From Symbiodinium sp. CCMP2592 (Eukaryota; Sar; Dinophyceae; Suessiales; Symbiodiniaceae), in assembly GCA_905221615.1 (NCBI GenBank), contig CAJNDT010004002.1, forward strand, positions 594,501 to 658,500: DNA of 64,000 nt, in the 5' to 3' direction. The stretch's first letter is position 1; each line of letters begins with the position of its first letter. Shown here in pieces: positions 3,301-64,000 of the stretch. Made by a program: the position numbers and the translations under genes. The notes under the pieces are model-generated. The model had not been told where the DNA came from. It was given only the letters and a program-made list of their open reading frames with translations, and searched no databases.

Positions 3301-6300
3301 GAGCCCGGTGAGGCACATGCGGACTCAGAGCGTGAAGAAGAAATCCCAGCTGTTAAGACGGCGCGGTTGATCAAGGATGCTGCTTCTTGTGAACACAGAT
3401 TAGCCCATTTCCCTAAGAACCCAGCCTGTAAAATATGTACACAGGCCAGAATGTACGCTAGGAAGACAAGCAAACTTAGACATGACCCGCTGCATGATCG
3501 CGGTTCGCTAGAGCCAACCACTGCGTTCAGTGAACGCGTCGCGGCGGACATCGTAGTCGTGTTCAAGGAGTCTTCCAAAGAGGATCGTGAATCGACCTTG
3601 CTTGTAGTGCGCGATGAATTCTCTGGCTACTTGCGCTCCTTTCCCCTAGTCAGGCGCACAACAGAAAACGTAGTCAGAGCACTTTTGCAATTTTCCGGTA
3701 AGCACGCGGAGTCGAAGCCTGTCGTCATGTTCAAGTCAGACAACGCGAAAGAACTTGAATCGGCTTGCCAGCAAATGTCTTGGGTCTCCGAGCCCACATT
3801 AGCTAACCGTTGGCCGCATAATTCTGTTCTCGAGCGGGACATCAGGTCGATCCAAGAGGTCACCCGCGCGGTACATTTACAAGCCGGTTTTGCAATAAGA
3901 CCTGGTCTTTGGGCTCATTCGGCGGTATTTGCAACGTTTGTGTTGAACCTTAAGCACAGCATTGCCGACCGTAAGGAGTCCCGTTATGTAGTCGCCACCG
4001 GTGAGGAGTTCCCCGGGCGTCTTCTACTTCTAGGTCAGCTCGTGTACTACAGGACTGATCCCAAACACCGAGAGAAGTTTGAACCTTCCGCCGCACCAGC
4101 TTTGTTTTGTGGTTATCGGTTAGATTCGGGGCCGGAGTCCTTTAGAGGGGTCTACCTTGTTTTAGATTACCGGAAAACCAAAGACGGTACTCCTGGATAC
4201 GATCTTGCAATTTCGGTGCCCTTTGAAGAGTTGTTTGTCCCCGAGGGTGAAGAGATTTTCCCGATGCGCGCCGCTTTCGAGCGTGCGGTCGAGGGATTCA
4301 CTGAACCTAAGTTTCCGGACATTAAGGGTTTAGAAGTGCCGTTCAGCCCACTTGGCCCCGACTCTACGCCAGCAAAGCGGCACGAGTATATCACTCTTGA
4401 TCGTATAATAAAATACGGGATAACCCCGGGATGCAAGGCTTGCAAAGGCGAAGCTGTGGTTCATTCTCCAGTGTGCAAGGTTCGCTTTGATGGGTTAGTG
4501 CGTGCCGACAAAACCGCCGAGGCCCGCATCAAATCGGTACCCCCGACACCAGTCAGTATTCCTCCAACGCCAGTTCCTCCTCCTGCACCTCTTAGTCCCG
4601 ATCCTCCGGCAGAGATAGCGCCCGATGCTGCAGATGATGCGCCCGCTCATCCGGACGAGGATTCCGACGACTTTGGTGGAGGGTTAGGAGCATTGGTAAA
4701 TCAGGAGTTGTTCGTTCCAGATGTTAGCTTTGTAGCCCGAGATCGCCAGATCCGTAGGTCTAAGGCTTCGAGTACAAACCAACTTGTCGAGTACTGCTGC
4801 AGCGACTCCTCCGAGATTGGTTTTGCCTGCACAATGTACGGGGTTGATTGTCTTAACATAGGATCGTCAACGATAGACTTCTCAGACCCAGCTCATGTCG
4901 ATCAGGCCAAAGGTCAGATAAAGCAAGGCGCTGTGATCTGGATGCCTATGTCATGCCTTGAACAGACAGCACAACAACACCCTACTGTGCAAGAGCATAG
5001 GGCGAGTAAGAAAGCACAGCTCAGAAAGAGCCGGGCGAAGGTTTGCCAAATGCTGAAACTAGCAATCTCGTTAGCCGAAGAAAAGCTGTCCAACGGCTGC
5101 CATGTTGCAGTCGACTGCCCAGAAGGGGGTTGGCTCTGGAACGAGTCTGATTGGATTGAGTTCGAGAAGCGCGCGAACTTGAAAAGAGTAATGCTCAGCG
5201 GATGCTCCTCTGGTAAGCGGTCATGCATCAGCACCACTTCCCTTCGAGTGCTCCAGCTGTTTGGGCAACACGAGCACAGCCAGTCCACTTCGCAAAGTGT
5301 GTCGAAAGGAGGCGATTCCTATGCCAATAGCGACTACAACTCACAAGTCGCTCAGCTGATAGTCGAGTCATTCTTCCCCGAGCACTTCCATCGCCACACA
5401 CCTTCGTTGTCGTCAAGTAATGCGTTAGTGACACGCAACCTTGCTAAGAGCGAATGGTTGAAGGATGCTCGAGGTTTAGAGGCTGTTCAGGCTGAGGGTG
5501 TAGGACTCCGCTCAAACCAGACATGGAGCGACGATTCCGTAATGCATTTGTGGCAACTGAAACAGGATTGCCGCAACACTGGACGCCGAGTCCAAATCGC
5601 TGAACTTCTGACGCTTTGTGGTGTAAAGCACTTTGAGTTGCACCCAACACAGCACAAGTACAAAGGCCGTGTAGTCTTTAGGGGGGACCAAGTGCGCGAC
5701 GCTTCTGGTAACCCAGTGCTGTTCGGCTCAGAAGAAACTGCGACTACACCAACCGGGTTGGTAGGTCTTGCCGCTTGCCTCTTTTACGGGCTCCGCCCCG
5801 GTCACGCGACCTCTGTGGCAGATGCTATCCAAGCATACTTGCAAGCGAAGATCGGTCGAGAGACCTGGGTAATAATCCCTCGGGAGCTCTGGCTCCCCGA
5901 GTGGACCCAGAGGTTCCCTCCCGACAGCCGTCTTGTAGTTAAACTTGAGAAAAGCCTATACGGGCACCCAGAATCGGGTAAGAGATGGCAAGACCACTTA
6001 ACCGTTCAGTTGAAAAGGCTCGGAGGTCGCGAACTTCCCGCCTACCCTAGCACTTGGGTTTTCGAGTTCGGTTCCCAGAAGTTAGTGCTTAATGTCTACG
6101 TCGACGACTTGACTTTAAGCGGACCCGTAGAGCTTCATTCCCAGTTCTGGCATAAGCTCCGTGGTCTTGTGAAACTTGAACCAGAGGTCTTTGTTCAAGG
6201 CGGCAATAATGGTTGTAGGATTCTAGGGCGGCATCACAGTTTCACGCGTGATGACTCAGTAGCCACTTGTGAATTTGACATGATTGCTTACACGCAGCAA

Positions 6301-6882
6301 CTTGTTGATTTCTATTGTGAAATGACCGGTGTAGAGAAAAGTAAGCTTCGCAAAGTAGCGTCACCTGCTTTCCCCGAGAACCAAGCAACTGACAGCGAGC
6401 TATGCAGTAACAGCACCGGTGAGTTACACGGATCCGCCTCCCGCATCCTGATGCGAGCCCTCTGGCTCAGCAGACTTGCTCGCCCAGACATCTCGTTCAT
6501 AATCACGAGGTTAGCTTCTAAAGTGAGTCGATGGGATAGGTTCGACGACCGTCAACTACTGCGTTGTGTGTCGTATCTCCATCACTCAAGTCGTGTGACT
6601 TTAAAAGGGTCTGTTTCGCAACAGGACTTGGGTTGCCAGATAGAGGTGTATACTGACGCAGACTTTGCTTCTTGCCCCCTGTCAGCGAAAAGCACGACTG
6701 GAATCCTCGTCGTTGCAAAGACCGGAGACTGCGCGTATCCACTCCACTGGGTATCGCGTAAGCAGTCCTCCACAGCTCGGTCCACGACCGAGGCCGAAAC
6801 GATCTCTCTCGTCTCTCGCGACCGCCATGTTCTCAGAGGTAGAAAACCTTCAAGAATATTTAGGCGATATCCTTGGGTTTGA
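319..6882 (+). CDS. Copia gag-pol polyprotein (main frame, truncated in RNase H)
   Basis: A 2,187-residue frame from ATG 319. Residues ~138-237 are an Ala/Gln/Glu-rich coiled coil. About 388-600 is a gag core. A Lys/Gly/Pro-rich basic stretch precedes a CCCH zinc finger (C-x7-C-x5-C-x3-H) near 715-735. The protease active site DSGA is at ~832. The integrase zinc-binding segment H-x3-H-x6-C-x2-C is at ~1025-1040. The integrase core shows Asp in VAADIV (~1077), Asp in SDNAKE (~1141) and Glu in LERD (~1172), D-30-E by my count. Reverse transcriptase spans ~1780-1935 with YVDD at 1927-1930. RNase H begins with YTDADFAS (~2111) and reaches TEAETISL. After nucleotide 6811 the frame reads about 24 unrelated residues and stops; the true continuation is one base ahead. 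Known role: reverse transcription and integration of the element RNA. Confidence 0.93.
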   Translation: MSHEMSSEEQSSLQITSSSSGVRALPVRASSRSSRGSRSSHSSSPSPTVRKGPHLKQSPASDKGPGSGSLVPFANQSPHNRSPDDGPIVRTGAAPARSIPYVPTGQGSQGSGVQDSSGVRLYQQNISIGLDPNEVMAQAREFESTVYGQAQAVVQEAQGQAREEARQFGTQVVNQAQTAVLEAQAIAKAAAAAAVEQARSELRLEVQQRELAFQQKEAELIAQIRTLQNEVTVLRHQSMPPPSDPPPNILNGTELAPTIAELRAEVNTLQDSVTSPRRPRLPLSSGVGTRPPATSYQRTPAPIAPSIKQNPSPHPSWHGSPVKRDPYSDDDSDDSELRLDFGDPPNPSDPSPHGSAGSHRSYNSRGVGSTMLFSEDDVYKHKDLSLVKVDSLPRDAAQFRSWKNAFVTKVCAIDRTGSDTLLKWLLPAFESSQDADLSDPQGLPRFDAHLASLLADPKHLNNELGIQLQGYIEGCQLQYTAPRGRVLLQMVAHRFFLDQRRGANLTEQALLELQLDTFSYQSLLAFANRVEYILNSIPVEHQPSEQTKFTWLFGRLKKCRLLQRHIDRIKDAHEGSRVRTWDWLFAKLKSLIAELREDANETAIKDALSPSPNKQGTKTKEQKEKDRRNRDKGAVADPQGSDTQPALPGKAKPPFKGSGKDKGQPPGAKGPGKGTPKGDRPKGGKGTPKGTPNPPPPKAPPGTSPKDPPAAKEKAPCLFFPKGTCNRGPNCPFAHISPGGKAPKAGAATKATVAATVAAVLPTSANGRSVGTSPHHHAGARNSWCSVKNLFSRMLRWFTGLSIIATPATIPLVDIALPVAQSGPFQLEWIADSGAGRNLTSFKALAQQGVGPGVGITATQADPIKFATGNGTFTATEVVRTIGSKFGSSESYLMSDCPLVRSMGELVNHQGHPFVWLPGSLPFFLPDSSSVASDAYGNIQLCSKDAIYASRLDGNVPVFQETVEFTDYAAPASSSAAGPSEVPLEGDDPKPPEAEPGEAHADSEREEEIPAVKTARLIKDAASCEHRLAHFPKNPACKICTQARMYARKTSKLRHDPLHDRGSLEPTTAFSERVAADIVVVFKESSKEDRESTLLVVRDEFSGYLRSFPLVRRTTENVVRALLQFSGKHAESKPVVMFKSDNAKELESACQQMSWVSEPTLANRWPHNSVLERDIRSIQEVTRAVHLQAGFAIRPGLWAHSAVFATFVLNLKHSIADRKESRYVVATGEEFPGRLLLLGQLVYYRTDPKHREKFEPSAAPALFCGYRLDSGPESFRGVYLVLDYRKTKDGTPGYDLAISVPFEELFVPEGEEIFPMRAAFERAVEGFTEPKFPDIKGLEVPFSPLGPDSTPAKRHEYITLDRIIKYGITPGCKACKGEAVVHSPVCKVRFDGLVRADKTAEARIKSVPPTPVSIPPTPVPPPAPLSPDPPAEIAPDAADDAPAHPDEDSDDFGGGLGALVNQELFVPDVSFVARDRQIRRSKASSTNQLVEYCCSDSSEIGFACTMYGVDCLNIGSSTIDFSDPAHVDQAKGQIKQGAVIWMPMSCLEQTAQQHPTVQEHRASKKAQLRKSRAKVCQMLKLAISLAEEKLSNGCHVAVDCPEGGWLWNESDWIEFEKRANLKRVMLSGCSSGKRSCISTTSLRVLQLFGQHEHSQSTSQSVSKGGDSYANSDYNSQVAQLIVESFFPEHFHRHTPSLSSSNALVTRNLAKSEWLKDARGLEAVQAEGVGLRSNQTWSDDSVMHLWQLKQDCRNTGRRVQIAELLTLCGVKHFELHPTQHKYKGRVVFRGDQVRDASGNPVLFGSEETATTPTGLVGLAACLFYGLRPGHATSVADAIQAYLQAKIGRETWVIIPRELWLPEWTQRFPPDSRLVVKLEKSLYGHPESGKRWQDHLTVQLKRLGGRELPAYPSTWVFEFGSQKLVLNVYVDDLTLSGPVELHSQFWHKLRGLVKLEPEVFVQGGNNGCRILGRHHSFTRDDSVATCEFDMIAYTQQLVDFYCEMTGVEKSKLRKVASPAFPENQATDSELCSNSTGELHGSASRILMRALWLSRLARPDISFIITRLASKVSRWDRFDDRQLLRCVSYLHHSSRVTLKGSVSQQDLGCQIEVYTDADFASCPLSAKSTTGILVVAKTGDCAYPLHWVSRKQSSTARSTTEAETISLVSRDRHVLRGRKPSRIFRRYPWV

Positions 6883-51955: not shown

Positions 51956-51999
51956 GAAAAGGTCCTTAACCCTTTGCGCCGAACCAGAACCACAGGGTT

Positions 52000-52350
52000 T
52001 AGATCAACAAGGCTTATATGAAAGGAACCCAAAATCTCATTTTTGTATGTGGTTGGCTTTATTTGTGTTTAAAAGTGTTTTTTTGTATTTAAAAGTATTG
52101 TTTTGTATTTAAAAGTTTTTTAAATAGGTTTTTTTGTGTTTTACAGTTGTTAAAATTCTTTTATTTTATTTTTGGTGTAAAAAATACATGTTTGTGAATT
52201 TTGTTTCTGAGTGAGTCAATTGGCTTCCTGTTGTTCTACCTGGTTTCCTGCTGCTGTATGTCTACAAAATTGTTGTTTATTTGTTGTTGAAGTTAATAAT
52301 TTTTAATATTTAATCTTTTTAAATAGTTTTGGGTTGTGATTGAACAAAGA
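52000..52350. promoter_or_regulatory. AT-rich strand-switch interval between divergent gene blocks
   Basis: To the left, coding blocks are on the minus strand; to the right, all are on the plus strand. The interval is clearly richer in A/T than its surroundings and contains TTTTTTGTATTTAAAAGT-like words repeated three to four times at 52065-52135, with many TTTT runs. Dinoflagellate promoters are reported to use TTTT-type motifs instead of TATA, so this is a reasonable place for divergent initiation, but that is inference. Confidence 0.45.
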
Positions 52351-52387
52351 AGGGAGGCCGTAGTGACATGTTGACTTGCCTTGAGAT

Positions 52388-52935
52388 CTTGCCCTTACCC
52401 ACACGGATCGACTGCCCTTCTCGGTTCGTGGGCACCGTTGGCCGGGTGTCAGGTTATGAGGCGATTGTATCTAGACCGCCTTGGGGCCAACGTGCCAGGG
52501 CAGTGGCATATGACACCCGGACAAATGGGCTAAAGTGCCGGGTGGGGCGGTTGAGGGGTTGTTCGCAGCCGTGCTTACAGCCTTGAAGGGGAGGCCATCC
52601 ATGCTTGTCGTCACGTTTTGTTAGGGAGCCTTGCGACTTGGATCGACAGAGGCAGAGTGCCACCTTACCCACACGGATCGACTGCCCATCTCGGTTCGTG
52701 GACACCGTTGGCCGGGTGTCAGGTGTTGTCGATGGTACCTGGACCGCCTTGGGGCCAACGTGCCAGGGCAGTGGCATATGACACCCGGGCACATGGGCTA
52801 AAGTGCCGGGTGGGGTGGTCCAGTGGTTGTGGCTTTTTTATTTTTCTCCCAACCAGGAGGGGAGGCCATCCATGCTTGTCACGTTAGTTAGGGAGCCTTG
52901 CGACTTGGATCGACAGAGGCAGAGTGCCAGTCGAG
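52388..52935. repeat. Tandem duplication, ~275-bp unit
   Basis: CTTACCCACACGGATCGACT opens both units (about 52391 and 52664); each ends GACTTGGATCGACAGAGGCA plus the GGCAGAGTGCC motif. Both contain GGCCGGGTGTCA and, about 60-70 bases on, ATGACACCCGG, an inverted pair. The second unit has an indel in the middle. Open frames do not look coding. Confidence 0.85.
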
Positions 52936-53318
52936 CCTCTCGAGGTTGCCTTACTTAAGTCCCTGCCCCATCGGGGTTGCTCCCCACACCGTTGGCCAGG
53001 TCTAAGTGTTCGGTTTGAATCCAAGCCTAGTGAACGCCTTCTCTTCCATTTCCTTCTCTCCCATCGGTCTTCATCGGCTTCCAGCCCATCGAGAAGTGGA
53101 TGCCAACTGCTGGGATCTCAGCATCAGCTTGCTTCAGCTACTTCCATTATTATGGTACAGTCCTGGCACCGAGGCTCATGACGAGGATCCCGAGGACATG
53201 CTGCCATCGCAGAGGACAAGCTGCCTTGCATAGTCAGTGAGCGTGTCATGTATCGCAACTTGCCGCTGCAGCAGTTGTGCTCGCTGTTGCCCTGCGTAAT
53301 CTACTATAGTCGTGTTAC

Positions 53319-54168
53319 AGCTGCTCTGTCTCTAGTCTAAGTCGTAGTAGGCCCCCCTGCAAGCCGGCAGATGTCGTCGATGTCGTGGAGTGACAGTGAG
53401 TCTGTGGGCTCGGACTGGGTTCTGGTTGACGATGAGGGTGCAAGTACTGCGGGCTCGGTCGCGGACAGTGCTGACGACGATGATTATGTGATTCCGTTCG
53501 ACGAGATGCTAGAGGAGTCCTTTTCGACATTGTGGATGTTTCTGGATTCTAAAGAGCGTGGGCAAGTCTTTCGAGCAGCCTTCCATATCAATGAACAGAT
53601 CATGTTCGTACTGTTTCCGAGACTTTTGCGGGATTTTAGGCAAGGCAGAGTGCCAGGAATTTTATATTTCAATGTGACAGACGAATGGCTGTCGTCACTG
53701 AATCAATGATTTGTCGTGTTTGTACAGCCTCCGCGACAGTATCACGGATCTTGGGGAAGGCAGAGTGCCGGGTTTGCGTGTGTTTAGGGGATTTTGAATT
53801 CGACGATCTAGCCAGCAGAGCTAGACTGTCCGATTTGAGACCTCAGCGGTAGTGTGCGCAACTTGGATTCAAAACGGTTACCCAGCATGACATGCTGACT
53901 ACACAGTGCCGGGTGGCAGTGATGTCCTCAGGACCCTGCTGTCTCCGAGGCTGGCTGCCTGCCTGCATAGTCTGTCAGTGAGTTGACTTGCACCATACAT
54001 GATCGACATCTGCCGGCCAGAGAATCAAGCGATTCATGCATACTGATGTAACAGTAGTAACAAAATGTTACATATCATTGATTAATGTACTATATAGTGA
54101 TGCATTAGTCACTGTTAATGTTTTAATCGTTGGACAATTGTGTGCTCGATGAAAGCAGTGATGCCGAC
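53319..54168 (+). repeat. Tandem gene duplication, unit 1 (~850 bp)
   Basis: Starts CTGCTCTGTCTCTAGTCTAA and runs to CAGTGATGCCGACGACC. Unit 2 follows directly. Each holds one small acidic-protein gene, two hairpin motifs, and a shared 3' region with TGTAACAGTAGTAACA and AATGTTTTAATCGTTGGACA. Confidence 0.92.
53371..53709 (+). CDS. Small acidic protein, tandem copy 1
   Basis: 112 residues from ATG 53371 (SSMSWSDSESVGSDWVLVDD) to LSSLNQ. The N-terminal ~50 residues are Ser/Asp/Glu-rich and probably disordered; the middle has a hydrophobic helical segment (EESFSTLWMFLDSKERGQVF, then INEQIMFVLFPRLLRDF). The hairpin motif at 53644 is translated as GRVP, just before GILYF. The 5' flank CCGGCAG right before ATG could be a spliced-leader or intron acceptor. 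The copy at 54222 keeps the frame despite many substitutions, which argues for a real protein. No family recognised. Confidence 0.65.
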   Translation: MSSMSWSDSESVGSDWVLVDDEGASTAGSVADSADDDDYVIPFDEMLEESFSTLWMFLDSKERGQVFRAAFHINEQIMFVLFPRLLRDFRQGRVPGILYFNVTDEWLSSLNQ

Positions 54169-55033
54169 GACCTGCTCTGTCTCTAGTCTAAGTCGTAGTA
54201 GGCCCCCCTGCAAGCCGGCAGATGTCGTCGATGTCGTGCAGTGACAGTGAGTCTCTGGACTCGGACTGGATTCTGGTTGCCGATGAGCGTGCAAGCACTG
54301 TGGCCTCGATCATGGACAGTGACTACGATGATTATGTGATTTATTTCGACGCGCTGCTAGAGGAGTCCTTTTCGACATTGTGGTTCTTTCTGAATTCTGA
54401 AGAGCGTGGGCATGTCTTGCAAGTAGACTGGCATATCAATGATATGATCCTGCACGTACTCTTTCCGAGATTTATGCAGGATTACAGTGAAGGCAGAGTG
54501 CCAGGAATTTTATATTACAATGACGTGCGAGACGAAGCTCTGTCGTCAATGATGAATCAGTGATTCATCGTGTTTGTACAGCCTCCGAGACCGCATTACG
54601 GATGTTGGGGAAGGCAGAGTGCCGGGTTTGCGTGTGCTTAGAGGATTTTGAATTCGACGATCTAGCCAGCAGAGCTAGACTGTCCGATTGGAGACCTCAG
54701 CGGTAGTGTGCGCAACTTGGATTCCAAAAGGTTACCCAGCATGACATGCTGACTACACAGTGCCGGGTGGCAGTGACGTCCTCAGGACCCTGCTGTCTCC
54801 GAGGCTGGCTGCCTGCCTGCCTGCCTGCATAGTCTGTCAGTGAGTTGCCTTGCACCATACATGATCGACATCTGCCGGCCAGATAATCAAGTGATTCATT
54901 CATACTGATGTAACAGTAGTAACACAATGTTACATATCATTGGTTAATGTACTGTATAGTGATGCATTAGTCACTGTTAATGTTTTAATCGTTGGACAAT
55001 TGGGTGCTCGATGAAAGCAGTGATGCCGACGAC
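54169..55033 (+). repeat. Tandem gene duplication, unit 2 (~865 bp)
   Basis: Repeats 53319-54168 to the end at CAGTGATGCCGACGACC, where the sequence passes into the phosphatase-like gene. The last bases of unit 2 therefore supply the ATG region of that gene. Confidence 0.92.
54222..54563 (+). CDS. Small acidic protein, tandem copy 2
   Basis: 113 residues, paralogue of the protein at 53371-53709. Shared landmarks: SSMS.SDSES..SDW.LV, LLEESFSTLW, ERG.V, HIN, VLFPR, EGRVPGILYYN. Coding differences are many while the 3' flanks are almost identical, so either the coding part evolves fast or the flanks have been homogenised. The hairpin motif at 54492 again encodes GRVP at the same site. No function can be given. 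Confidence 0.65.
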   Translation: MSSMSCSDSESLDSDWILVADERASTVASIMDSDYDDYVIYFDALLEESFSTLWFFLNSEERGHVLQVDWHINDMILHVLFPRFMQDYSEGRVPGILYYNDVRDEALSSMMNQ

Positions 55034-56309
55034 CGTTTCAAGGTGCTCAGGGAGTTCCGAGGCAGAGTGCCAGACTTCTGCTGCTGACCATCAGAATCAG
55101 GCCAATCACATTGACCTTGGCAGTGATTACTGGAACGAAGCCGTGCAACAACTTCGGTGGAATTGTTTACACTGTGGCAGATCAGCTGCCGACTATACCA
55201 CCGGGCTCCGAAAGATCCAAAGGGCTGCACAATTGGATCAACGAATCAAATTGGCAGTTGAGGCCATCTCAGATTTCGGAGATATGGATATGAAGTTGTA
55301 CAAAGCATGGACCGGCCAGACAGATGTGCTGCCTGGGTCGATCCCGCCACCTCGGCCATGCCAGCATGATGTCGAGACGTGGCCCATGGATGATGTTTTG
55401 ATTTACGACCATCCCCAGTGGCAACTGTTTGTTGGCAGTATTGGTTGCCCGATCCGATATGACCAGCTCCGGGTCAAGCCTGACATTGTCATCTCTATGA
55501 ATGCAGATGACAGACCTCGGAATTTTGAGCCATGGGACTGGTATCAGTATTTGGCGAATTGTGGACCGTTTGGCACTGCACATCTTCGGTATGGTGGCTG
55601 GGATCAAACACATGCCAATGACTTTGATGCTGAACAAAGAAGTCATGAGTTCAAGACCATTTGGCGCCGCCTCATTTCAGATTTCAGAAAGATTATGATG
55701 TGCTGGCAGCGCTCAGCAGAGGAGTTCAGCCAGAGTCAAAGGCAGAGTGCCATCAAGGGCAAAATGATGGGCAAGGCCAATGGCGGCAGGGGCAAGGGCA
55801 AGACAATCAGCAAGGGCTACAGCGGCCCCTGTCAGGTTTCCAATCACATGCAAAGCCAGAAGGCATCGACGAAGGGCTCATTTGGCTATGGCTGCTCCTA
55901 TGACAAGGGCTTCAGCAAGGGAAGTGACATGGGCAGCCTGTTCGGAAGAGCCGCTGATGGAAGGCAGAGTGCCGATGGAAGGCAGAGTGCCTTGAAGGTG
56001 GCCGATGAGACATTCCCTGGTGAGCTCGGTAATGCTCTTGCTTTGTTGGAGGCGATGAAGCTTCAGGGAGGTGGTCGGAAGCGTGGAGGCAAGAAGAGGC
56101 CAATTCGTGTGCTTGTCCATTGCTACGGTGGCATTAACAGGACCTGTGCTGCTTATTGTGTCCTAGTCATGGCCTTTGCCTCGATGACCATGGAACAAGC
56201 CATTGTCAGGTGGATCAACCACCGAGCCTACTATGCTCCATTCCGGGATCGTGAGTACATGATTGAAGCACTGCTGGAAATGCAGGATGAGCTGCACACG
56301 TACAGTTGA
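55011..56309 (+). CDS. Dual-specificity-phosphatase-like protein with a low-complexity insert
   Basis: 432 residues from ATG 55011. Residues ~139-165 (LFVGSIGCPIRYDQLRVKPD, IVISMN) resemble the first strand and helix of dual-specificity phosphatases, and residues 370-377 are HCYGGINR, the HC-x5-R loop, with Cys371 as expected nucleophile and Arg377; the helix after it reads TCAAYCVLVMAFASMTMEQA. Between them, about residues 240-330 are Lys/Gly/Ser/Gln-rich, with three copies of the hairpin motif read as RQSA (55741, 55963, 55981); a fourth near the N-terminus (55061) reads AEC. Predicted role: dephosphorylation of protein or RNA substrates, cytosolic or nuclear. No obvious general-acid loop is seen, so activity is uncertain. 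The true 5' end may lie upstream through splicing. Confidence 0.7.
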   Translation: MKAVMPTTVSRCSGSSEAECQTSAADHQNQANHIDLGSDYWNEAVQQLRWNCLHCGRSAADYTTGLRKIQRAAQLDQRIKLAVEAISDFGDMDMKLYKAWTGQTDVLPGSIPPPRPCQHDVETWPMDDVLIYDHPQWQLFVGSIGCPIRYDQLRVKPDIVISMNADDRPRNFEPWDWYQYLANCGPFGTAHLRYGGWDQTHANDFDAEQRSHEFKTIWRRLISDFRKIMMCWQRSAEEFSQSQRQSAIKGKMMGKANGGRGKGKTISKGYSGPCQVSNHMQSQKASTKGSFGYGCSYDKGFSKGSDMGSLFGRAADGRQSADGRQSALKVADETFPGELGNALALLEAMKLQGGGRKRGGKKRPIRVLVHCYGGINRTCAAYCVLVMAFASMTMEQAIVRWINHRAYYAPFRDREYMIEALLEMQDELHTYS

Positions 56310-56757
56310 TCATCGACACTGAACCCGAAGTCCATGGTCAAACAGTTCTGCTCCAATGAATGATTCTGAGCCGTCGAAATTTGTGTCCCGACACTGGCCC
56401 AGCCAGAGAGTCCTGGACCCGACACTGGACTGCTGGCTGGAAGTGAAACACAGTCCTTACCTTGAAAAGGCTAATAGTTACATTCCCACTTTCAGCTGGC
56501 AGTCACAGCTTAATTCGTGCGTTTAAACCTGGCTGCCGGTGTTACTGACTGAGCTTAAAAAGAAAGTGAGATCATGCCCGTCTCGGTTGTGGAAACTGTC
56601 AGTTCCTTTGTCGGTTGTGCCGACATGGTGATCAGGGCCGCTGGGGCGATTGGATGAGTGAATCCAGCCGGCGACTCAGTGGGTGCAAATGTGACTTTAA
56701 CAGTCAGTCTCCGGTGATTGTAATGAGTGCTCATTTTTGCCTACTTGTGCTGTTGCA
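56310..56757. other. Intergenic or intronic stretch
   Basis: No domain is seen. The end, with a pyrimidine-rich TTTTTGCCTACTTGTGCTG followed by TTGCAGCAG, looks like a splice acceptor for the next gene. Confidence 0.45.
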
Positions 56758-57415
56758 GCAGTCTGGTTCAGGTAAGGCAGAGTGCCCTTGTCCCAATTGT
56801 GCAGTGGGCAAGTCATTATCCGCCATGGAAAACACAGGGGCAGGCCGCCACCGCACTCAGCTGCAAGAGTTTTCAAATTGGCAGCTGACCAACTCATTGA
56901 ACAACGCTCAAGCCCAAAGAACAAGTCAGGTCGGGAAGGGAGCAGGAAAGCCAGGGCAGACTGCCACAGGGCAGAGTGCCACAGGGCAGAGTGCCAGCGC
57001 GAGCAAGGGCGATCTTGGCAAGGGCAAGGGAAAGAAGGGCAAGACCCCGATGCAAGACCCCAACCAGACCCTTCACACATACTTCATGTGCGTGGAGGAC
57101 GTTTGGCAGGCAGTGGGCAGTGTGTTTGATGATAATCATAGCATGTGTTGATTGTGACTGTTTCTTACTGCTTGACTGGATGTCTCCCTGCAGATTCGCT
57201 GGGACTTCTTGAAAGGGAACGGCATCAGCGCTTGGGCGCAACCCGGTTCCTCGGAGACCAAAAACCATCCGCACTGGTCCTTGCGCCCCACGGCCCAGTT
57301 GGCCCTTGAACGCTACCAATGGTGGCCAGACAGCATTAGATGGCCACTCAGATGCAAGCCATGCTTCGACGCTACATTTATTTATTATCTTATATCTACG
57401 GATCTTAATAATTAA
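56758..57415 (+). CDS. Small spliced gene with Gly/Lys-rich middle, two exons visible
   Basis: Exon 1 is open from about 56758 (after TTGCAGCAG) to 57091 and carries a CPCPNC motif, a Gln/Asn-rich part (NWQLTNSLNNAQAQ) and a basic Gly/Lys-rich segment (GDLGKGKGKKGK). The hairpin motif is read as AEC at 56776 and as QSA at 56970 and 56985; a variant lies at 56955. A GT-AG intron of 102 bases (57092-57193) joins TYFMC to IRWDFLKGNGISAW in phase, and exon 2 continues HWSLRPTAQLALERYQWW with a stop at 57413-57415, if it is not spliced again before. Without splicing, exon 1 runs on to a stop at 57151. No family recognised. Confidence 0.5.
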
Positions 57416-57515
57416 AACTGACTAGAATCAAGTAGCAACTTCAACATGATCTCAGTTCAGGATCGATAAACAGGCACCGCCACTTTACCTGAAGCTGGAG
57501 CTCACCGGTGCAGGC

Positions 57516-57776
57516 ATGCAAGTGATGACGGAGAGAAGATGGCTCTATGCCTGTCATCAGGGCTGGGCGCGGGGGGCTGAGAATTTGACGCTGTGGGAAG
57601 GGGAAGTCCGCGAAGGTGAGCAACTCTTGTGGACCACGACCATGGTGAGATTCGGTTACGACGAAGATGATCCGGAGGCCTGGAATGAAGAGCGTGTGGA
57701 CGATGAGGAGGATTACAACGAGTTCGAGCCTGCTATTGTGCAAGAAAACATCCTGATGATGGACGGCGAATCGTGA
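57516..57776 (+). CDS. Small acidic protein
   Basis: 86 residues from ATG 57516, preceded by GGTGCAGGC, a possible acceptor (so an upstream exon may exist). The first half has basic and aromatic residues (TERRWLYACHQGWARGAENL); the second half is strongly acidic (DEDDPEAWNEERVDDEEDYN). Directly after the TGA come three hairpin motifs within 42 bases (57788, 57805, 57819). No family recognised. Confidence 0.5.
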   Translation: MQVMTERRWLYACHQGWARGAENLTLWEGEVREGEQLLWTTTMVRFGYDEDDPEAWNEERVDDEEDYNEFEPAIVQENILMMDGES

Positions 57777-58902
57777 GAAAAAAGAAGGGCAGAGTGCCTT
57801 AAAAGGCAGAGTGCCAAAGGCAGAGTGCCCAGAATTGGACCATTCAGTGAGTGGCAAATTCCAACATCAATTTAATTTACAGGCCAGGACAGTGACGAAG
57901 GCAGAGTGCCAGGTGGGTCAGGCTTCGTCGACTGACTCTTCTCAAGTTTTTCAGTGCCGATGTCTGCTCATGTGGACTTCTGCCTGCCTTTCGCACAGCA
58001 ACAGGTTATTTGTTTGTGGTGCAGGCAAACCAACAAGTCATGATCAAAGTTGTGAGTGTTTTGGAGAAGGCCTCGTCGCTGTCAGAGTAGTGCCTCCAGA
58101 AGAGCATTGCTTGCTGCAGAAGCAAAACTGTGAGTGCTGAGACTTCTGAAGACCGAGCACTTCTGAGTTCTGTTGGATGTGTTGGGTTTGCGACTGTGCT
58201 GAGAGAGTCTGAGTATGAATGAAAGTGACCATGCAAGGTTTGGCCGTCAGCTGGCGTCTCCAGACCCCAGGATTGCTGGTCATCGGTGCTGTTCTTAGCT
58301 TCCGATCATGCTGCTTCTGCGTTGCCAAATTCAACTTAGCATTCTCGGGCTTCTGAAGTGTCATGTCATGATTGTTTTGCCTATGGCTTATGATGGTTGC
58401 TCAGGTTTCAAATGTTGCTGCAGTGGTCCTTGAATCATGGCATATGGCAGATTTGAATATCAACACAGCCCTTGAATTAGGTTTCATTCGTGTGCTAAGC
58501 TCCCGATCATGCTGAGTCTGTCTGGCCCCTCAATTAAGTTAAACTCCGTGTAGCTGCTGCTTCAATAAAAGTGTCATGTCATGATTATTCTGTCGATGGA
58601 GTTGCTCAAAGTGAAGTGAGTCGTGGTCCTTGAATGATGGCATATGCATGATATTTAATGTCAATGTGAGCATAATATCAAAATATAGTTGATATAATTT
58701 AAATTGTGTCAAATACTAGTAACTATAATCTAACAACACATTGACGTCAGAGGTAGTATATCATTTCGACATTATAAGGCAGAGTGCCGCCTCGCCATTC
58801 TTTGCAGAGTGCCTTGAGCTGGACTGAGAAGGCTGAGTGCCTGCATCTGGCTGGACAAGGCAGAGTGCCGCAATCTGGCTGGACAAGGCAGAGTGCCGCA
58901 GG
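57777..58902. other. Intergenic region with hairpins and an imperfect duplication
   Basis: Hairpin motifs at 57788, 57805, 57819, 57900, 58778, 58859 and 58887. Two related blocks of about 120 bases (58358-58480 and 58568-58690) share TGTCATGTCATGATT, GTGGTCCTTGAAT and ATGGCATATG in the same order. An AT-rich stretch (58650-58740) precedes the next gene. Confidence 0.55.
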
Positions 58903-61900
58903 ATGACAGCGCCTGTGCATACGAGTCCGCTTGGTCAGACGTTTTGGGCCAATGTGCGAGCCGGCAACATCACCTGTGAGTTTTACGAACAACAGCTGGA
59001 TGGATCCTTGCAGATGGGTCCGAATTATCCCTGGCCGATCAAAAAACCTCTAGACTACTATGTCACAGCCTTCGGTGAGGTCCGCCTGCAATTCCGCGTG
59101 AGAGGCGGGAAAGGATTCAAACAGTGCAAGTGTGAATGGAAATACGTCGGTCATGGAATGAATCGGGACTCAATGATTGCGAGGATCCCACAGCCGTGGG
59201 TCATCGACATTCTGAAGCTTCTGCGCGAGCTCAGGATTCCTCGGTCTGAAAGGCAGAGTGCCGAAGTCCTCAAAGCCCCGGAAGTCGCAGCAGAGGCCCT
59301 GAGACTGGTGGATTCTATTCCTGAAGATGCTCTGGACTTCAATAATCGGACAGATCAGGTGCACCTCTGTGTCAAGCTGCACAGGCCACTCGCAAAGGAT
59401 GAAAAAGAGTGTGGAAACCAATTTGACTGGCGTTTTCTGCAATCTCGAATGTTCACAACCCACTGGCAATCGTTTCCTGTCCCGCTCGCTTTCGACTTGA
59501 AAACCTTGGTCACCCATGCCTCGGGCGTAGTGGCACCGCGGATGAGAAAATCGGTGATCGTCACAGAAGCCAAAGGCAACGGGACGACTGTGGGAGCCTT
59601 CCTCAACCAGAGGTTTTCCGACCCAAGCAAGTTCCCAGAGAAAGAGACCATGCTGATCCTCTTCAAGCTGTTCAAGTTTGTCTTGAAGCTACAAATGCAT
59701 ACCCTTAGGCAGGAAGGGAGTCTTCTGGGGGACCTCCATGAGAATAACATTACTGTCATGGGAGGCAGAGTGCCGGACCACAAAGGCAGAGTGCCAGTGG
59801 GGGCGGAGAATTTGACGTTTGCCTTGGTGGACTGCTCCGGTTGCCTACCAATTAATGATGTTCCCGCAAAAAAGATGAAGGGTCACCTCAACTGCTTTCT
59901 GAGCTTCTGGCAAATTCCCTCAAACCACAGCGCCACCGTCTCCGAGTACGCGTCACAGGTCTGGAAGAAGATGCTTGCTGCTGGCGAAAAATTCAAAACG
60001 GACTATGGACCGAATAAGTGGAGAGTTGGTGAAATGGTGTCCGATCTGTACAAGTTGTGCAAGAATCTGGAAGCAAAGTTCCAGCAGGGTCTGGACTTGA
60101 TGCAACAATGCCAGCAAATGAGGGTCGAGGCAACAAGGGCAGTAATGAGCAGAATGCAGCCGCAGGCACTTGCGCCGCCGAATCCTCCGCCAACACCTCA
60201 GTGTTGGGATTCGACACCTCCCTGGGATCCCCCTGGATCTGCGACTGCAAAAGCCAAAGGGATGAAAGGAGGAGTGCCAGTAGAAGGCAGAGTGCCAGGC
60301 AAAGGCAAAGCAATACATCATCCTGATGGGACTCCTCCCAGGGGGGCCCGCCCGCCTTTGCATAAACCGCCTCAGCAAAAGGCGAGGCCTCCTGCTCCGT
60401 GGCAGGTGCCAGTAAGACCGCTGCGAAATGCTGGGCCTCTGCCTGATCACCCTTGGCAGCAGGAGTGGGAACCACTTCCTCCTGGCAGGGTGCAACCAGA
60501 TCATCCTCCTCCTGGCAGGGGGCCGGTGCAACCAGATCATCCTCCTCCTGGCAGGGGCCCGGTGCAACCAGCTCATCCTCCTCCTGGCCACCAGCAGCAG
60601 CAACATCGCTGGGGCAGAACGGCCAGAATGCCCGTCATCCAGGACGAATACGATGCCTGGCATGACGATGAGCCGAATCCCGAGCCGAATTCCCGGCCAA
60701 GAGTGCCAGAGCCGATGGGTCCCCCGCCGGCAAAGCAAGGCAGAGTGCCAGAGCCGATGGGTCCCCCGCCGGCAAAGCAAGGCAGAGTGCCAGATCCCGA
60801 GCCGAATCCCCCGCCAAGAGTGCCAGAGCCGATGGGTCCCCCGCCGGCAAAGCAAGGCAGAGTGCCAGAGCCGATGGGTCCCCCGCCGGCAAAGCAGCCT
60901 CCTGCCAAAAGGAAATTCGGCGACGGACAGCCTGTGCCTGTTGGTTCCAAGCCACAGTTTATGTCGGCAAGTGCTCCTGCTGAAATGACGGAAAAGCAAA
61001 GGATGGACGAGCAGGATTTCGCCAAGGAACTTGCCGAGTATGCTGACGATACGGCAAGAGGCTCCAATTTCGTTCCGCAGGGCCGACGCGCTGAGCCGGC
61101 CTGGGTGGCAAAGGCCCAGGGCTTGAAAAGCAAGGGCGACGCCGTCCCGATCGGGAAAGCAGCTTACTTCGCCCAAAAGGGCAAGCCTGCCGGAAAGGGC
61201 CACAAAGGCAGAGTGCCAGTGGAGGACAATATCCCTACTGACCTTGTTGGAAAGGGCCGTCCAGCCCTAGTGCCACTTGTTGGAAAGGGCCGTCCCAATA
61301 TCCCTACTCACCTTGTTGGAAAGGGCCGTCCAGGCGAAGCTCATCCTGCTTTTTTGCGGCATATGAAGACGGAGAAGGGAGGAATATGGTTGGACCCCAA
61401 GGAGGAGGTGGAAGCCGAGGAGGAGGACACTTTGGTTGATGTTGTGGTGGAAGAGGAGGAGCCTGTGCAAGATCCGTCGGACAATGAAATGGAATTTGTC
61501 GAGGTTATGGTGCAGGATGAGCAACCGCCGCTTGAGATGGAGGCGGAGCCCGACCCGGATCGCTTGGACGAGGATGAGGGTGACAGCCAAGCAACAATGG
61601 TACTAGGGGACCATCTCCGAGAGGAGCAAGATGAGCCGATGCCTTCTGTACCGGAGACCCGGGTGACTGAGAGCGAGCACGATGCCGTCGTCGCCAAGGT
61701 CATGAACGAGCTGGAGGCTATGAATGTGGACCCGAGCCCGAAGGCTGCCGCAAACCCCAAGAGTGCGACTGCGCCAGTGCCTGGAGAGGTGAAGCCTTTC
61801 TTGGAAGCGGAGGAGGACCTCGGAATTACGGACCCCCAAGGCAGAGTGCCAAGGGGTCAAAACAAGATCAAGGTTCCAACCGAGCTTTTGCAGCCAGAGA

Positions 61901-62718
61901 CTGAGGAGGAGAAAACTCTCAGAGCGTTGCGGGGAATGCTGCCATGCAGTCACAGGGCGGTGACGACTTCGAAGGTGGGCCGCCTCGCCAATCGGGCACG
62001 TATGGCGAGACCGGTGCCACAAGATCAGCCGTTCAACCCCCAGCACAACGATCGGAAGTTCAACAGCAAGACTACGACTGTCATGACCCAGCTGCTCATG
62101 GCTGTCCATGAGATCACAGTCCGAGAATGCGAGAAGAATAACGTGCCAGTGGATGGAAAGGACATGGCGTGGAATCACTTTCGGTCGAAGGGCTCGAAAA
62201 CTGCGGTTGTCTGGGATCTGTTGTGTGACCAGAACGTGAAGGAGATTCCAAACAATTCTGAGCCTGGGGACTGGCACCTGTGGCTTCAGAGGGAAACTGG
62301 GGTGGCGGTCATTGAGCAGATTCTCCAGTGCATGTTCAATGTCACTCCGCCAAAACATGGCCGTGATAAAGTCAAGGGAAAAAATCTGACATACTGGCAC
62401 TGGTTTGAGGCCTCCAAGACACTCGTTGAGGTTTATACGACGGAAGATGTCATCTCAAAGGAAAAATTCAAGCCCAAAGACCTGCAGAGCTGGATTGTGC
62501 CTTTGTCCTGCAAGATTTGGGATGCTTACAATTACACCATGCTTGTGTATTGTCAGAAGAAGCTGGAACAGAAGGCAAGGGGGGAAGACCTAGACGCGGT
62601 GAGCCAGATGGGTGATGATGTCCCGCCATCGGAAGATGAAGAGTATGTGGATGTTTACCAGACCACTGCGAACTTCGTTCCTGATTGGGGAGTAACTGCA
62701 GATGGCTTTCAGGATTGA
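58903..62718 (+). CDS. Large protein with kinase/APH-like catalytic motifs and Pro-rich, acidic regions
   Basis: 1,271 residues from the first ATG (58903); the frame is open upstream to 58837 without another ATG. Residues ~1-400 form a folded part. At ~274-282 LLGDLHENNIT resembles the GDLHxxN catalytic loop of kinase-fold enzymes such as aminoglycoside phosphotransferases and ABC1 proteins (Asp277), and at ~306-312 FALVDCSG sits where DFG would be (Asp310). A Pro-rich region follows (~420-670) with the repeats PDHPPPGRGPVQ and PEPMGPPPAKQGRVP; then LVGKGRP repeats, an acidic stretch (~850-930), and a C-terminal domain of ~200 residues (MTQLLMAVHEITVRECEKNN, LWLQRETGVAVIEQILQCMF). The hairpin motif occurs inside the coding region in different frames. 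I did not find a Gly-rich loop, so it could be a pseudokinase. Confidence 0.65.
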   Translation: MTAPVHTSPLGQTFWANVRAGNITCEFYEQQLDGSLQMGPNYPWPIKKPLDYYVTAFGEVRLQFRVRGGKGFKQCKCEWKYVGHGMNRDSMIARIPQPWVIDILKLLRELRIPRSERQSAEVLKAPEVAAEALRLVDSIPEDALDFNNRTDQVHLCVKLHRPLAKDEKECGNQFDWRFLQSRMFTTHWQSFPVPLAFDLKTLVTHASGVVAPRMRKSVIVTEAKGNGTTVGAFLNQRFSDPSKFPEKETMLILFKLFKFVLKLQMHTLRQEGSLLGDLHENNITVMGGRVPDHKGRVPVGAENLTFALVDCSGCLPINDVPAKKMKGHLNCFLSFWQIPSNHSATVSEYASQVWKKMLAAGEKFKTDYGPNKWRVGEMVSDLYKLCKNLEAKFQQGLDLMQQCQQMRVEATRAVMSRMQPQALAPPNPPPTPQCWDSTPPWDPPGSATAKAKGMKGGVPVEGRVPGKGKAIHHPDGTPPRGARPPLHKPPQQKARPPAPWQVPVRPLRNAGPLPDHPWQQEWEPLPPGRVQPDHPPPGRGPVQPDHPPPGRGPVQPAHPPPGHQQQQHRWGRTARMPVIQDEYDAWHDDEPNPEPNSRPRVPEPMGPPPAKQGRVPEPMGPPPAKQGRVPDPEPNPPPRVPEPMGPPPAKQGRVPEPMGPPPAKQPPAKRKFGDGQPVPVGSKPQFMSASAPAEMTEKQRMDEQDFAKELAEYADDTARGSNFVPQGRRAEPAWVAKAQGLKSKGDAVPIGKAAYFAQKGKPAGKGHKGRVPVEDNIPTDLVGKGRPALVPLVGKGRPNIPTHLVGKGRPGEAHPAFLRHMKTEKGGIWLDPKEEVEAEEEDTLVDVVVEEEEPVQDPSDNEMEFVEVMVQDEQPPLEMEAEPDPDRLDEDEGDSQATMVLGDHLREEQDEPMPSVPETRVTESEHDAVVAKVMNELEAMNVDPSPKAAANPKSATAPVPGEVKPFLEAEEDLGITDPQGRVPRGQNKIKVPTELLQPETEEEKTLRALRGMLPCSHRAVTTSKVGRLANRARMARPVPQDQPFNPQHNDRKFNSKTTTVMTQLLMAVHEITVRECEKNNVPVDGKDMAWNHFRSKGSKTAVVWDLLCDQNVKEIPNNSEPGDWHLWLQRETGVAVIEQILQCMFNVTPPKHGRDKVKGKNLTYWHWFEASKTLVEVYTTEDVISKEKFKPKDLQSWIVPLSCKIWDAYNYTMLVYCQKKLEQKARGEDLDAVSQMGDDVPPSEDEEYVDVYQTTANFVPDWGVTADGFQD
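60463..60594 (+). repeat. 36-bp in-frame minisatellite, ~3 units
   Basis: GATCATCCTCCTCCTGGCAG followed by GGGCCGGTGCAACCA repeats in the Pro-rich region, encoding DHPPPGRGPVQP. Confidence 0.85.
60698..60895 (+). repeat. In-frame repeat carrying the hairpin motif, 4 units
   Basis: Four units of about 42 bases encode PEPMGPPPAKQ, three followed by GRVP, arranged as two pairs separated by GRVPDPEPNPPP. The motifs at 60739, 60781 and 60856 are unit boundaries. Confidence 0.88.
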
Positions 62719-63428
62719 TCAGTGTCAATGATTGAGCTGAACGAGTAGGTTTATTAATTGTGTTGCCAAAACAAAGCCATCTAGTGGACCTCCTCTTCTT
62801 CATCCCATTCGTCCTTGGGCACTGGGGACTTTCACAAGGCAGAGTGCCAGAGAGTTCTCGGTGTGACTAAGGCAGAGTGCCACCAAACAGTGTGGCCTGT
62901 TCATATTCATTTTTGTGTCGCTGTCACTAGGCAGAGTGCCGGAAAGGCAGAGTGCCAATGTGAAATCGCATTTCTTGGGGCGTTTGAATGTTGTCACTTT
63001 TGCGGTCCGTCTGATCTGGCACATTTCAGCTTGCCGTTTTGGAAAACAAAGACGATGCCTATGCATACAGTCATGTCGGCAGTAACTCGATGGATTAATT
63101 ACTGTGCCTGTGAATTGATTGGTTCAACCTTGGTTTCCTGTGACAGCCCCATAAAACCTTTCAGGTGCTGGCGTCCAAGGTGGTTGGCTACTATGGCAAG
63201 GCTGGAATGCATGATGCAAGTGATTGTGAGTTGTGGAAGCTGAAACGCTTGCTATCTGGCCGTTGATGGGACCATGCCACGTAGTGTGTACGGACTCTAG
63301 TGACTAGTGAGTGGATGCGCAAGAATTTCTTGACCTGGCCGCAATCAACATATGTGTGTTCAAGATCGAGTCCCTTAGTGCTGCAGTGGTGCTTCCAGGC
63401 AGAGTGCCAGAGACAGTCGCCGAGAGCA
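62719..63428. other. Intergenic region with five hairpin motifs
   Basis: Motifs at 62838, 62871, 62930, 62946 and 63398. An open frame spans 62815-63243 but reads the motifs as AEC with no other sign of coding. It may be an untranslated or intronic part of the neighbouring genes. Confidence 0.4.
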
Positions 63429-63863
63429 ATGGGAAAGTCGAGGAAGAGCGCTCGTGTGAGTGATCAGATGATGTTCCCAATGCCGGGGGCAATGAACCCA
63501 GCAATGGGAATGAACAACCCACTGGCCATGATGAACCCTTTCATGTTGCAACAGCAGCAACAGATGCAGCAGCAGCAACAGATGCAGCAAATGCAGCAGA
63601 TGCAGCAAATGCAGCAACAGCAGCAGATGGCTGCTGTGGGTGAATCAAGGCAGAGTGCCAACGACTCCTCCTCGTCGGAATCAGAAGACCAAGAAGTGAG
63701 GAGGATTCGTAAGGAAACCAAGAAGAACAGAGCAAGGCAAGGAGCAACGATCGGGATTGATCGGCTGGCAACGTCCACTACCGATGCAGATGCAATCCCG
63801 AGAAGCGCCACGACATTGCGTTCGATCCCTCTGGCTGCTTGTCAATCAACAGAGTATCCCTAA
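63429..63863 (+). CDS. Met/Gln-rich protein with basic C-terminal half
   Basis: 144 residues from ATG 63429 (GKSRKSARVSDQMMFPMPGA), chosen over upstream open sequence because the basic N-terminus follows directly. Residues ~18-45 are Met/Pro/Asn-rich, ~38-75 are a Gln/Met repeat (QQQQMQQMQQ), followed by an acidic Ser cluster (DSSSSESEDQEVRR) and a Lys/Arg-rich end. The hairpin motif at 63649 is read as RQSA just before the Ser cluster. The composition recalls RNA-binding or splicing-associated low-complexity proteins, but no domain is seen. A GTGAGT close to the start could also be an intron donor. Confidence 0.45.
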   Translation: MGKSRKSARVSDQMMFPMPGAMNPAMGMNNPLAMMNPFMLQQQQQMQQQQQMQQMQQMQQMQQQQQMAAVGESRQSANDSSSSESEDQEVRRIRKETKKNRARQGATIGIDRLATSTTDADAIPRSATTLRSIPLAACQSTEYP

Positions 63864-64000
63864 GGTCCGCAATGATCCCTGAACCCTCCCCCCACAAAGC
63901 CTAGATAAGCCTTACTGACTGAGGTGAAGGTGAAAGCTCTGCTCGAGCGGGTTCATAGTGCATGGGATGCCGCGGTCACGGCTGACCTGCCACAACAAAC

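Follow-up and report, generated by a model that had tools for sequence, protein, structure and literature searches.

We analyzed a window of 64,000 nucleotides from Symbiodinium sp. CCMP2592 (contig CAJNDT010004002.1, positions 594,501 to 658,500 of the forward strand), in which an 11-mer, GGCAGAGTGCC (here called the word), recurs within a large transposable element. The plus strand has 35 exact copies, from position 52651 to position 63659, against a chance expectation of 0.04 per 64 kb (100 dinucleotide shuffles), and the minus strand has none; both the copy number and the departure from chance reported in a first-pass annotation of this DNA were reproduced. Allowing up to one mismatch gave 40 sites in the window, with three of the added ones inside the same 11 kb. 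The word was preceded by A at position −1 in 32 of 35 copies and at −2 in 29 of 35. As RNA it folds into a 4-bp stem with a GAG loop (−2.9 kcal/mol), bearing out the earlier statement that it can form a hairpin, and 54 of 3000 letter shuffles folded equally well. Searches of the window against Rfam (gathering scores) and for tRNAs returned no match. Numbered from left to right on the plus strand, exact copies 1 to 20 lie at 52651-52661, 52918-52928, 53644-53654, 53759-53769, 54492-54502, 54613-54623, 55061-55071, 55741-55751, 55963-55973, 55981-55991, 56776-56786, 56970-56980, 56985-56995, 57788-57798, 57805-57815, 57819-57829, 57900-57910, 58778-58788, 58859-58869, and 58887-58897; copies 25 to 27 at 60739-60749, 60781-60791, and 60856-60866; and copies 30 to 35 at 62838-62848, 62871-62881, 62930-62940, 62946-62956, 63398-63408, and 63649-63659. 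The other six are given below with the gene that contains them. One word begins right inside a GTAAG that resembles a 5' splice site (56768-56786, cagGTAAGGCAGAGTGCC).

The 11 kb that carry the word are the left part of a giant, high-copy DNA transposon with terminal inverted repeats, which occupies 51963-64000 on the plus strand and continues beyond the window end. This carrier, and the fact that most words in the genome are transposon copies, had been missed by the first-pass annotation. The left boundary at 51963 is sharp between copies and was common to the 9 matching stretches of 10 fetched left ends. Comparison of copies and pairing of ends placed the left terminal inverted repeat, TCCTTAACCCTTTGCGCCGAACCAGAACCACAGGGTTTAGATC..., at 51963-52015 (plus strand); in the copy on contig C2068, which is 28,702 bp long, the right end is an imperfect inverted repeat of the left. 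Perfect 5-bp target duplications directly flanked the ends of 8 of 10 sampled two-ended elements; of the other two, one sits within an AT repeat that is consistent with 5 bp and one was unclear. The C2068 copy, outside these ten, is without a target duplication. Of 323 candidate matches to the 4-kb core (58700-62750), 37 were scored, which gives at least 37 genome copies at ~100% identity. A 30-mer from the core matched the genome 231 times and a 26-mer from the end 602 times, and among the 100 places listed, inverted end pairs were found at least 10 times at 4-7 kb, at least 4 times at 11-17 kb, and at least 21 times at 24-59 kb. Together, these end pairs and match counts indicate a DNA transposon that is present both as long copies and as short derivatives. 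One 5-kb derivative (C51:12409-17584) has both ends, a 5-bp target duplication, and, close to the right end, two exact words in reverse; its first (left) 800 bp hold no word. The element encodes an RNase H-like transposase with a predicted fold of hAT type, but the 8-bp target duplication of the hAT superfamily was not seen, the duplication here being 5 bp in 8 of 10 elements.

Within the window, the element includes a left subterminal tandem repeat of two ~270-bp units, each with a word at its end (52393-52929, plus strand), and a tandem duplication (unit 1, 53321-54172; unit 2, 54172-55034; both plus strand) whose units are ~90% identical and hold two words each, unchanged between them. The C2068 copy contains 76 exact words and seven one-mismatch copies. 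Sixty-six of the exact words are forward and 10 are reverse; nine of the reverse words sit in an array of ~93-bp tandem repeats at the right end, and the tenth in a repeat-rich gap, so that outside the array 66 forward words face a single reverse one. The earlier statement that the word always follows the sense of the genes therefore held within the window but not for the element as a whole, whose right-end array of reverse words had also been overlooked. This array is built on CCCTAAA-rich repeats. Words are not concentrated at the transposon tips: the nearest lies 686 bp from the left tip and ~480 bp from the right tip, and the 66 forward copies are spread across the body. The repeats near the two ends point inward, with forward words in the left 270-bp repeats and reverse words in the right 93-bp repeats.

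Genome-wide, the word was found 20,442 times, compared to 244 for a control string, with strand totals of 9890 and 10552. These totals are nearly equal because the element is inserted in both orientations (core 30-mer, 103 and 128 matches), and the strand bias, for which the first-pass annotation had proposed a genome count, is visible per element rather than in the totals. At 76 words each, 231 bodies account for 17,556; subtracting the 244 of the control leaves ~2,600 words, which fit short derivatives, arrays, and copies with an altered core 30-mer, such that the totals fit the supply of elements. In non-element DNA, no word was found in the 66,146 bases counted, which include the left 51,962 of the window. 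Among viral contigs, two carry a chance-like pair of GGCAGAGTGCC, and a tblastn search found no transposase relatives.

The repeat is a DNA word and not a peptide, as one 11-mer is read in three frames and also occurs outside long frames. Each forward word of the C2068 copy was assigned to its longest open frame, and frames of at least 120 codons were considered long. By this measure, long frames hold 51 of the 66 forward words (29 read GRVP, 12 QSA, and 10 AEC) and the other 15 are found elsewhere, in line with the occurrence in open frames and gaps described previously. An open frame as such is no proof of a gene; the transposase and a 1293-codon gene have homologs, and 16 of the 51 words fall in such frames (seven in the 962-codon frame and nine in the 1293-codon frame). 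In the predicted structure of the transposase, six of its seven words, all reading GRVP, lie in segments with a predicted local distance difference test score (pLDDT) below 50 (residues 167-184, 397-436, and 662-706), and the seventh (KAEC, near residue 905) in a confidently modeled part. Because the reverse word has a stop codon in none of its frames, coding alone does not explain the strand bias. Frames with homologs remain open and align through the words, unlike introner elements, in which the insert is an intron.

The 1293-codon gene (58837-62718, plus strand) contains nine words, eight read as GRVP and one as QSA. Its homologs P0026 and P0027 are 42% and 36% identical to it (BLASTP), or 55% and 51% over aligned columns. 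A 442-codon frame (54981-56309, plus strand) has a phosphatase-like HCYGGINRT loop and four words in two frames; its Pfam match to CDKN3/DSPc was under the cut-off. A 192-codon frame (63285-63863, plus strand) has two words and only low-complexity matches under the cut-off (TFIIA, Saf4/Yju2, and Dehydrin). Family searches with the main element frames gave matches that were under the cut-off or of low complexity, searches with the relatives gave stray matches, and a PDB sequence search of the element frames gave no convincing match. The 1293-codon gene also contains GDLHENNITVM and VDCSG (window positions 59700-59830), which resemble a kinase-like catalytic loop; Pfam returned no match for it. 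Elsewhere in the giant element, a 385-codon frame (C2068:747443-748597) contains FLEIFAGQGNLS and FGTPCSSF, presumably DNA-methyltransferase-like motifs; searches of this frame against Pfam and NCBIfam gave no match, and against PDB no convincing one.

The number of words per site varies among relatives of the same family, with three, two, or one after NPDP and two or one in an LFE/FFE linker, and altered copies such as GGVP and GRAP adjoin words in these relatives. At one site, P0027 reads EQKAECQAKGE and the window gene EQKARGE, the four-residue difference holding the word. Close word pairs are irregularly spaced, at 13 to 28 bp (16 pairs). Flank repeats of at least 3 bp were detected at 4 of the 35 window words, where ~1.3 were expected (717 of 20000 random places). 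All four of these words directly adjoin another word, which suggests short tandem duplication as the origin of some pairs. No target duplication of the kind an 11-mer micro-element would leave was found around single words, and insertion of the 11-mer as a unit thus has little support.

The word was compared with those of related families at the protein level only. P0006 (aligned to the transposase at 47%) has five GVLP, P0007 (43%) five GVVP, and P0005 (46%) three GVVP, and several of these peptides lie at linkers that bear GRVP in the GGCAGAGTGCC family. P0029 (31% to P0006) contains LAPAQ five times (three of them LAPAQGN), PCASAG twice, and LRQRRA once. In an exhaustive codon check, PCASAGQ and LAPAQGN together allowed a single DNA string, the 21-mer CCTTGCGCCAGCGCAGGGCAA, which spells LRQRRA in its third frame. 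This string folds into a 7-bp stem (one G-T pair) closed by a 4-base loop, a fold equaled in 56 of 3000 shuffles of the 18-base core. P0029 contains eight sense segments of CCTTGCGCCAGCGCAGGGCAA and one 4-letter reverse match, which is chance-like; viral contigs gave no match to the string. Words that differ between families are thus seen here, in GGCAGAGTGCC, in CCTTGCGCCAGCGCAGGGCAA from the P0029 peptides, and in the GVVP and GVLP peptides of P0005 to P0007, and words specific to a family and mainly in sense orientation seem to characterize the transposon clade. For GVVP, GVLP, and LAATQG (P0030 and P0034), one frame cannot fix the DNA word, and hairpins there are suggestions only. A further candidate, CCACATCGTGG, back-translated from AGHIVD of P0008, P0015, and their kin, had 532 matches versus 424 for its control and so no clear enrichment. 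A search with P0009 found the GRVP family at all 36 scored places (of 1033 candidates) and, among these, no sign of an AGHIVD-type family. A 13-mer from the P0029 word, TTGCGCCAGCGCA, was found 44 times, versus 5 for the reversed control, at 44 unclustered places with about one per contig. In a protein record of Polarella glacialis (P0016), a transposase relative is joined to a myosin motor domain (PF00063), either through a gene-model error or by capture of a host exon.

To the left of the element, positions 319-6882 hold a 2187-codon frame with a Copia-type reverse transcriptase (RVT_2), a weak integrase core, and a CCCH zinc finger; it is a retrotransposon polyprotein without a stop. The dispersed 11-mers of positions 1-51962 are mainly telomere-like CCCTAAA/TTTAGGG runs, which are numerous, and no second word with a 4-bp hairpin was among the 40 dispersed 11-mers listed for these 52 kb.

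We tentatively favor, at somewhat less than an even chance, the reading that GGCAGAGTGCC is recognized in the sense RNA of the element as a self tag by an element protein. Sense transcripts would carry the word, either in the form of a short hairpin or as sequence within a hairpin context, and a putative element-encoded protein would read it, marking the element's RNA for export, for protection, or for translation. Each family of the clade would keep private words, allowing the tag to distinguish self from related families, and new words would originate from small in-frame additions to protein linkers, surviving there since the added peptide does no harm. The strand bias is the most telling observation: the word points one way through frames and gaps alike, which favors an RNA reading, since a duplex site needs no orientation. 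That the tag would act as an RNA hairpin is an inference. Recurrence of a hairpin in the unrelated word CCTTGCGCCAGCGCAGGGCAA supports a folded tag, and the differing words of distant relatives hint at a self-recognition code. Possible but more doubtful is a dialect across the whole clade, in which dozens of identical sense hairpin words in exons and gaps would be swapped wholesale as a new family emerges and would be read by a co-evolving element protein as a self tag.

Several observations weigh against the RNA tag. A Pfam scan of 12 element frames recognized no RNA-binding family, the stem of GGCAGAGTGCC is just 4 bp, and the nine reverse words of the right-end array stand behind the last long forward frame. 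The words proposed for other families are known from proteins alone. Stem-preserving covariation, which the first-pass annotation had put forward as a check, was not detected within the family: three of seven one-mismatch copies keep the stem, about as many as expected by chance (13 of 33 single substitutions, hand-counted). The RNA interpretation drawn earlier from strand bias is partly supported: the bias holds, at 66 to 1 per element outside the array, and stem preservation is near chance. No significant purifying selection on the word was detected. Of the 68 single-nucleotide polymorphism columns in 28 copies, none falls in the 242 columns of the word (P = 0.09), and word conservation in two divergent pairs gave P = 0.13 and 0.32. 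Finally, the 1293-codon gene has six words that lie away from its proline-rich repeats; P0026 or P0027 retains half of these, and the other three are not retained. Copy 21 (59252-59262, read as RQSA) is retained in P0026, and copies 23 (59785-59795) and 24 (60286-60296) in both homologs; copy 22 (59764-59774) is retained in neither, copy 28 (61207-61217) is retained in neither, and copy 29 (61840-61850) is not retained in P0027, P0026 ending upstream of it.

Three other explanations were considered. It is somewhat unlikely that the word is a double-stranded DNA site for an element protein, either the transposase, as with hAT subterminal repeats, or a protein that counteracts silencing, as VANC does for the Arabidopsis VANDAL transposons, with the high word density recruiting the protein element-wide. 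The inward-pointing repeats near both ends and the two reverse words kept near the right end of the 5-kb derivative would suit such a site, and VANC targets are likewise short, specific to a transposon family, and different between relatives (PMC5735166). However, a duplex is indifferent to orientation, at odds with the near-exclusive forward orientation outside the array; VANC motifs lie in non-coding regions (PMC5735166); and no word occurs in the first 800 bp of the 5-kb derivative or, in the C2068 copy, within 686 bp of the left tip. The inward-pointing repeats would fit a function of the DNA at the element ends, and RNA and DNA roles may coexist. Less probable still is that the word has no function: a hairpin-prone sequence would be multiplied through template switching or slippage, would be tolerated where it falls in a disordered linker or a gap, and would inherit the orientation of its source. 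The irregular spacing of close pairs, flank repeats confined to adjoining words, degenerate copies beside exact ones, copy numbers that differ per site among relatives, and the weak selection signal are all consistent with inert spread. Against it stand the excess of exact over one-mismatch copies (76 versus 7), the words that hold site and frame in proteins only 42% and 36% identical (such as RQSA in P0026, though three of six sites are not retained), and the different word spread through three frames, in sense only, in the P0029 family; copying from elsewhere would also be expected to yield both orientations. That the DNA repeat is a by-product of a peptide feature, a GRVP linear motif, is very improbable. 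GRVP is the commonest reading in long frames and relatives show GVVP and GVLP at the same linkers, but the frame distribution largely contradicts this explanation, with 22 of 51 words reading QSA or AEC and 15 of 66 outside long frames, as do the reverse array behind the long frames and the single DNA word in three frames of P0029.

If the clade does use such a dialect, it would be a case of self-recognition by sequence dialect in a DNA transposon of a eukaryote. How large DNA transposons confine their products to their own copies and not to short parasitic derivatives becomes directly testable by word swap, given an element filled with a private, oriented word and sister families with words of their own. 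The case also shows the extent to which coding sequence can bear a second, non-protein message. Should the words turn out to be inert, the carrier would still stand out among transposons, being 28.7 kb long and combining a hAT-like transposase fold with a target duplication of 5 bp.

Among the papers listed for dinoflagellate transposons, hairpins, or hAT elements, no title or abstract opening described such a system, and the GGCAGAGTGCC string itself occurs in 10 published papers on other subjects. Dispersed packaging signals share a loop motif in virus RNAs. Those of hepatitis B virus (HBV) resemble the present case most closely in orientation, with many sense-strand hairpins around a common core (PMC7612645). 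Here, in contrast, the whole 11-mer is invariant and lies within a DNA transposon. For DNA uptake sequences, we know of no orientation bias relative to genes. Closest in form are the uptake sequence dialects of the Neisseriaceae, which are short words in and between genes that differ between relatives, but these are marks for DNA uptake in bacteria and not part of a eukaryotic mobile element (PMC3630211). The subterminal repeats of the hAT transposon Hermes share short words near the ends and a similar predicted transposase fold; in Hermes, however, the repeats sit at the tips, whereas here the tips are without a word and the whole 28.7-kb body is filled, and the target duplication is 5 bp rather than 8 (PMC10368747). 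VANC targets are closest in spirit, sharing a short, family-specific word in many copies that differs in related families, but their motifs lie in non-coding regions and form tandem repeats (PMC5735166). The words described here instead occupy long open frames in all readings (51 of 66 by the 120-codon measure), keep mostly to one strand, and can fold. Since each of these known systems appears to depart from it in at least one defining feature, the word system of this transposon may be new, unless it proves to be of the VANC kind.
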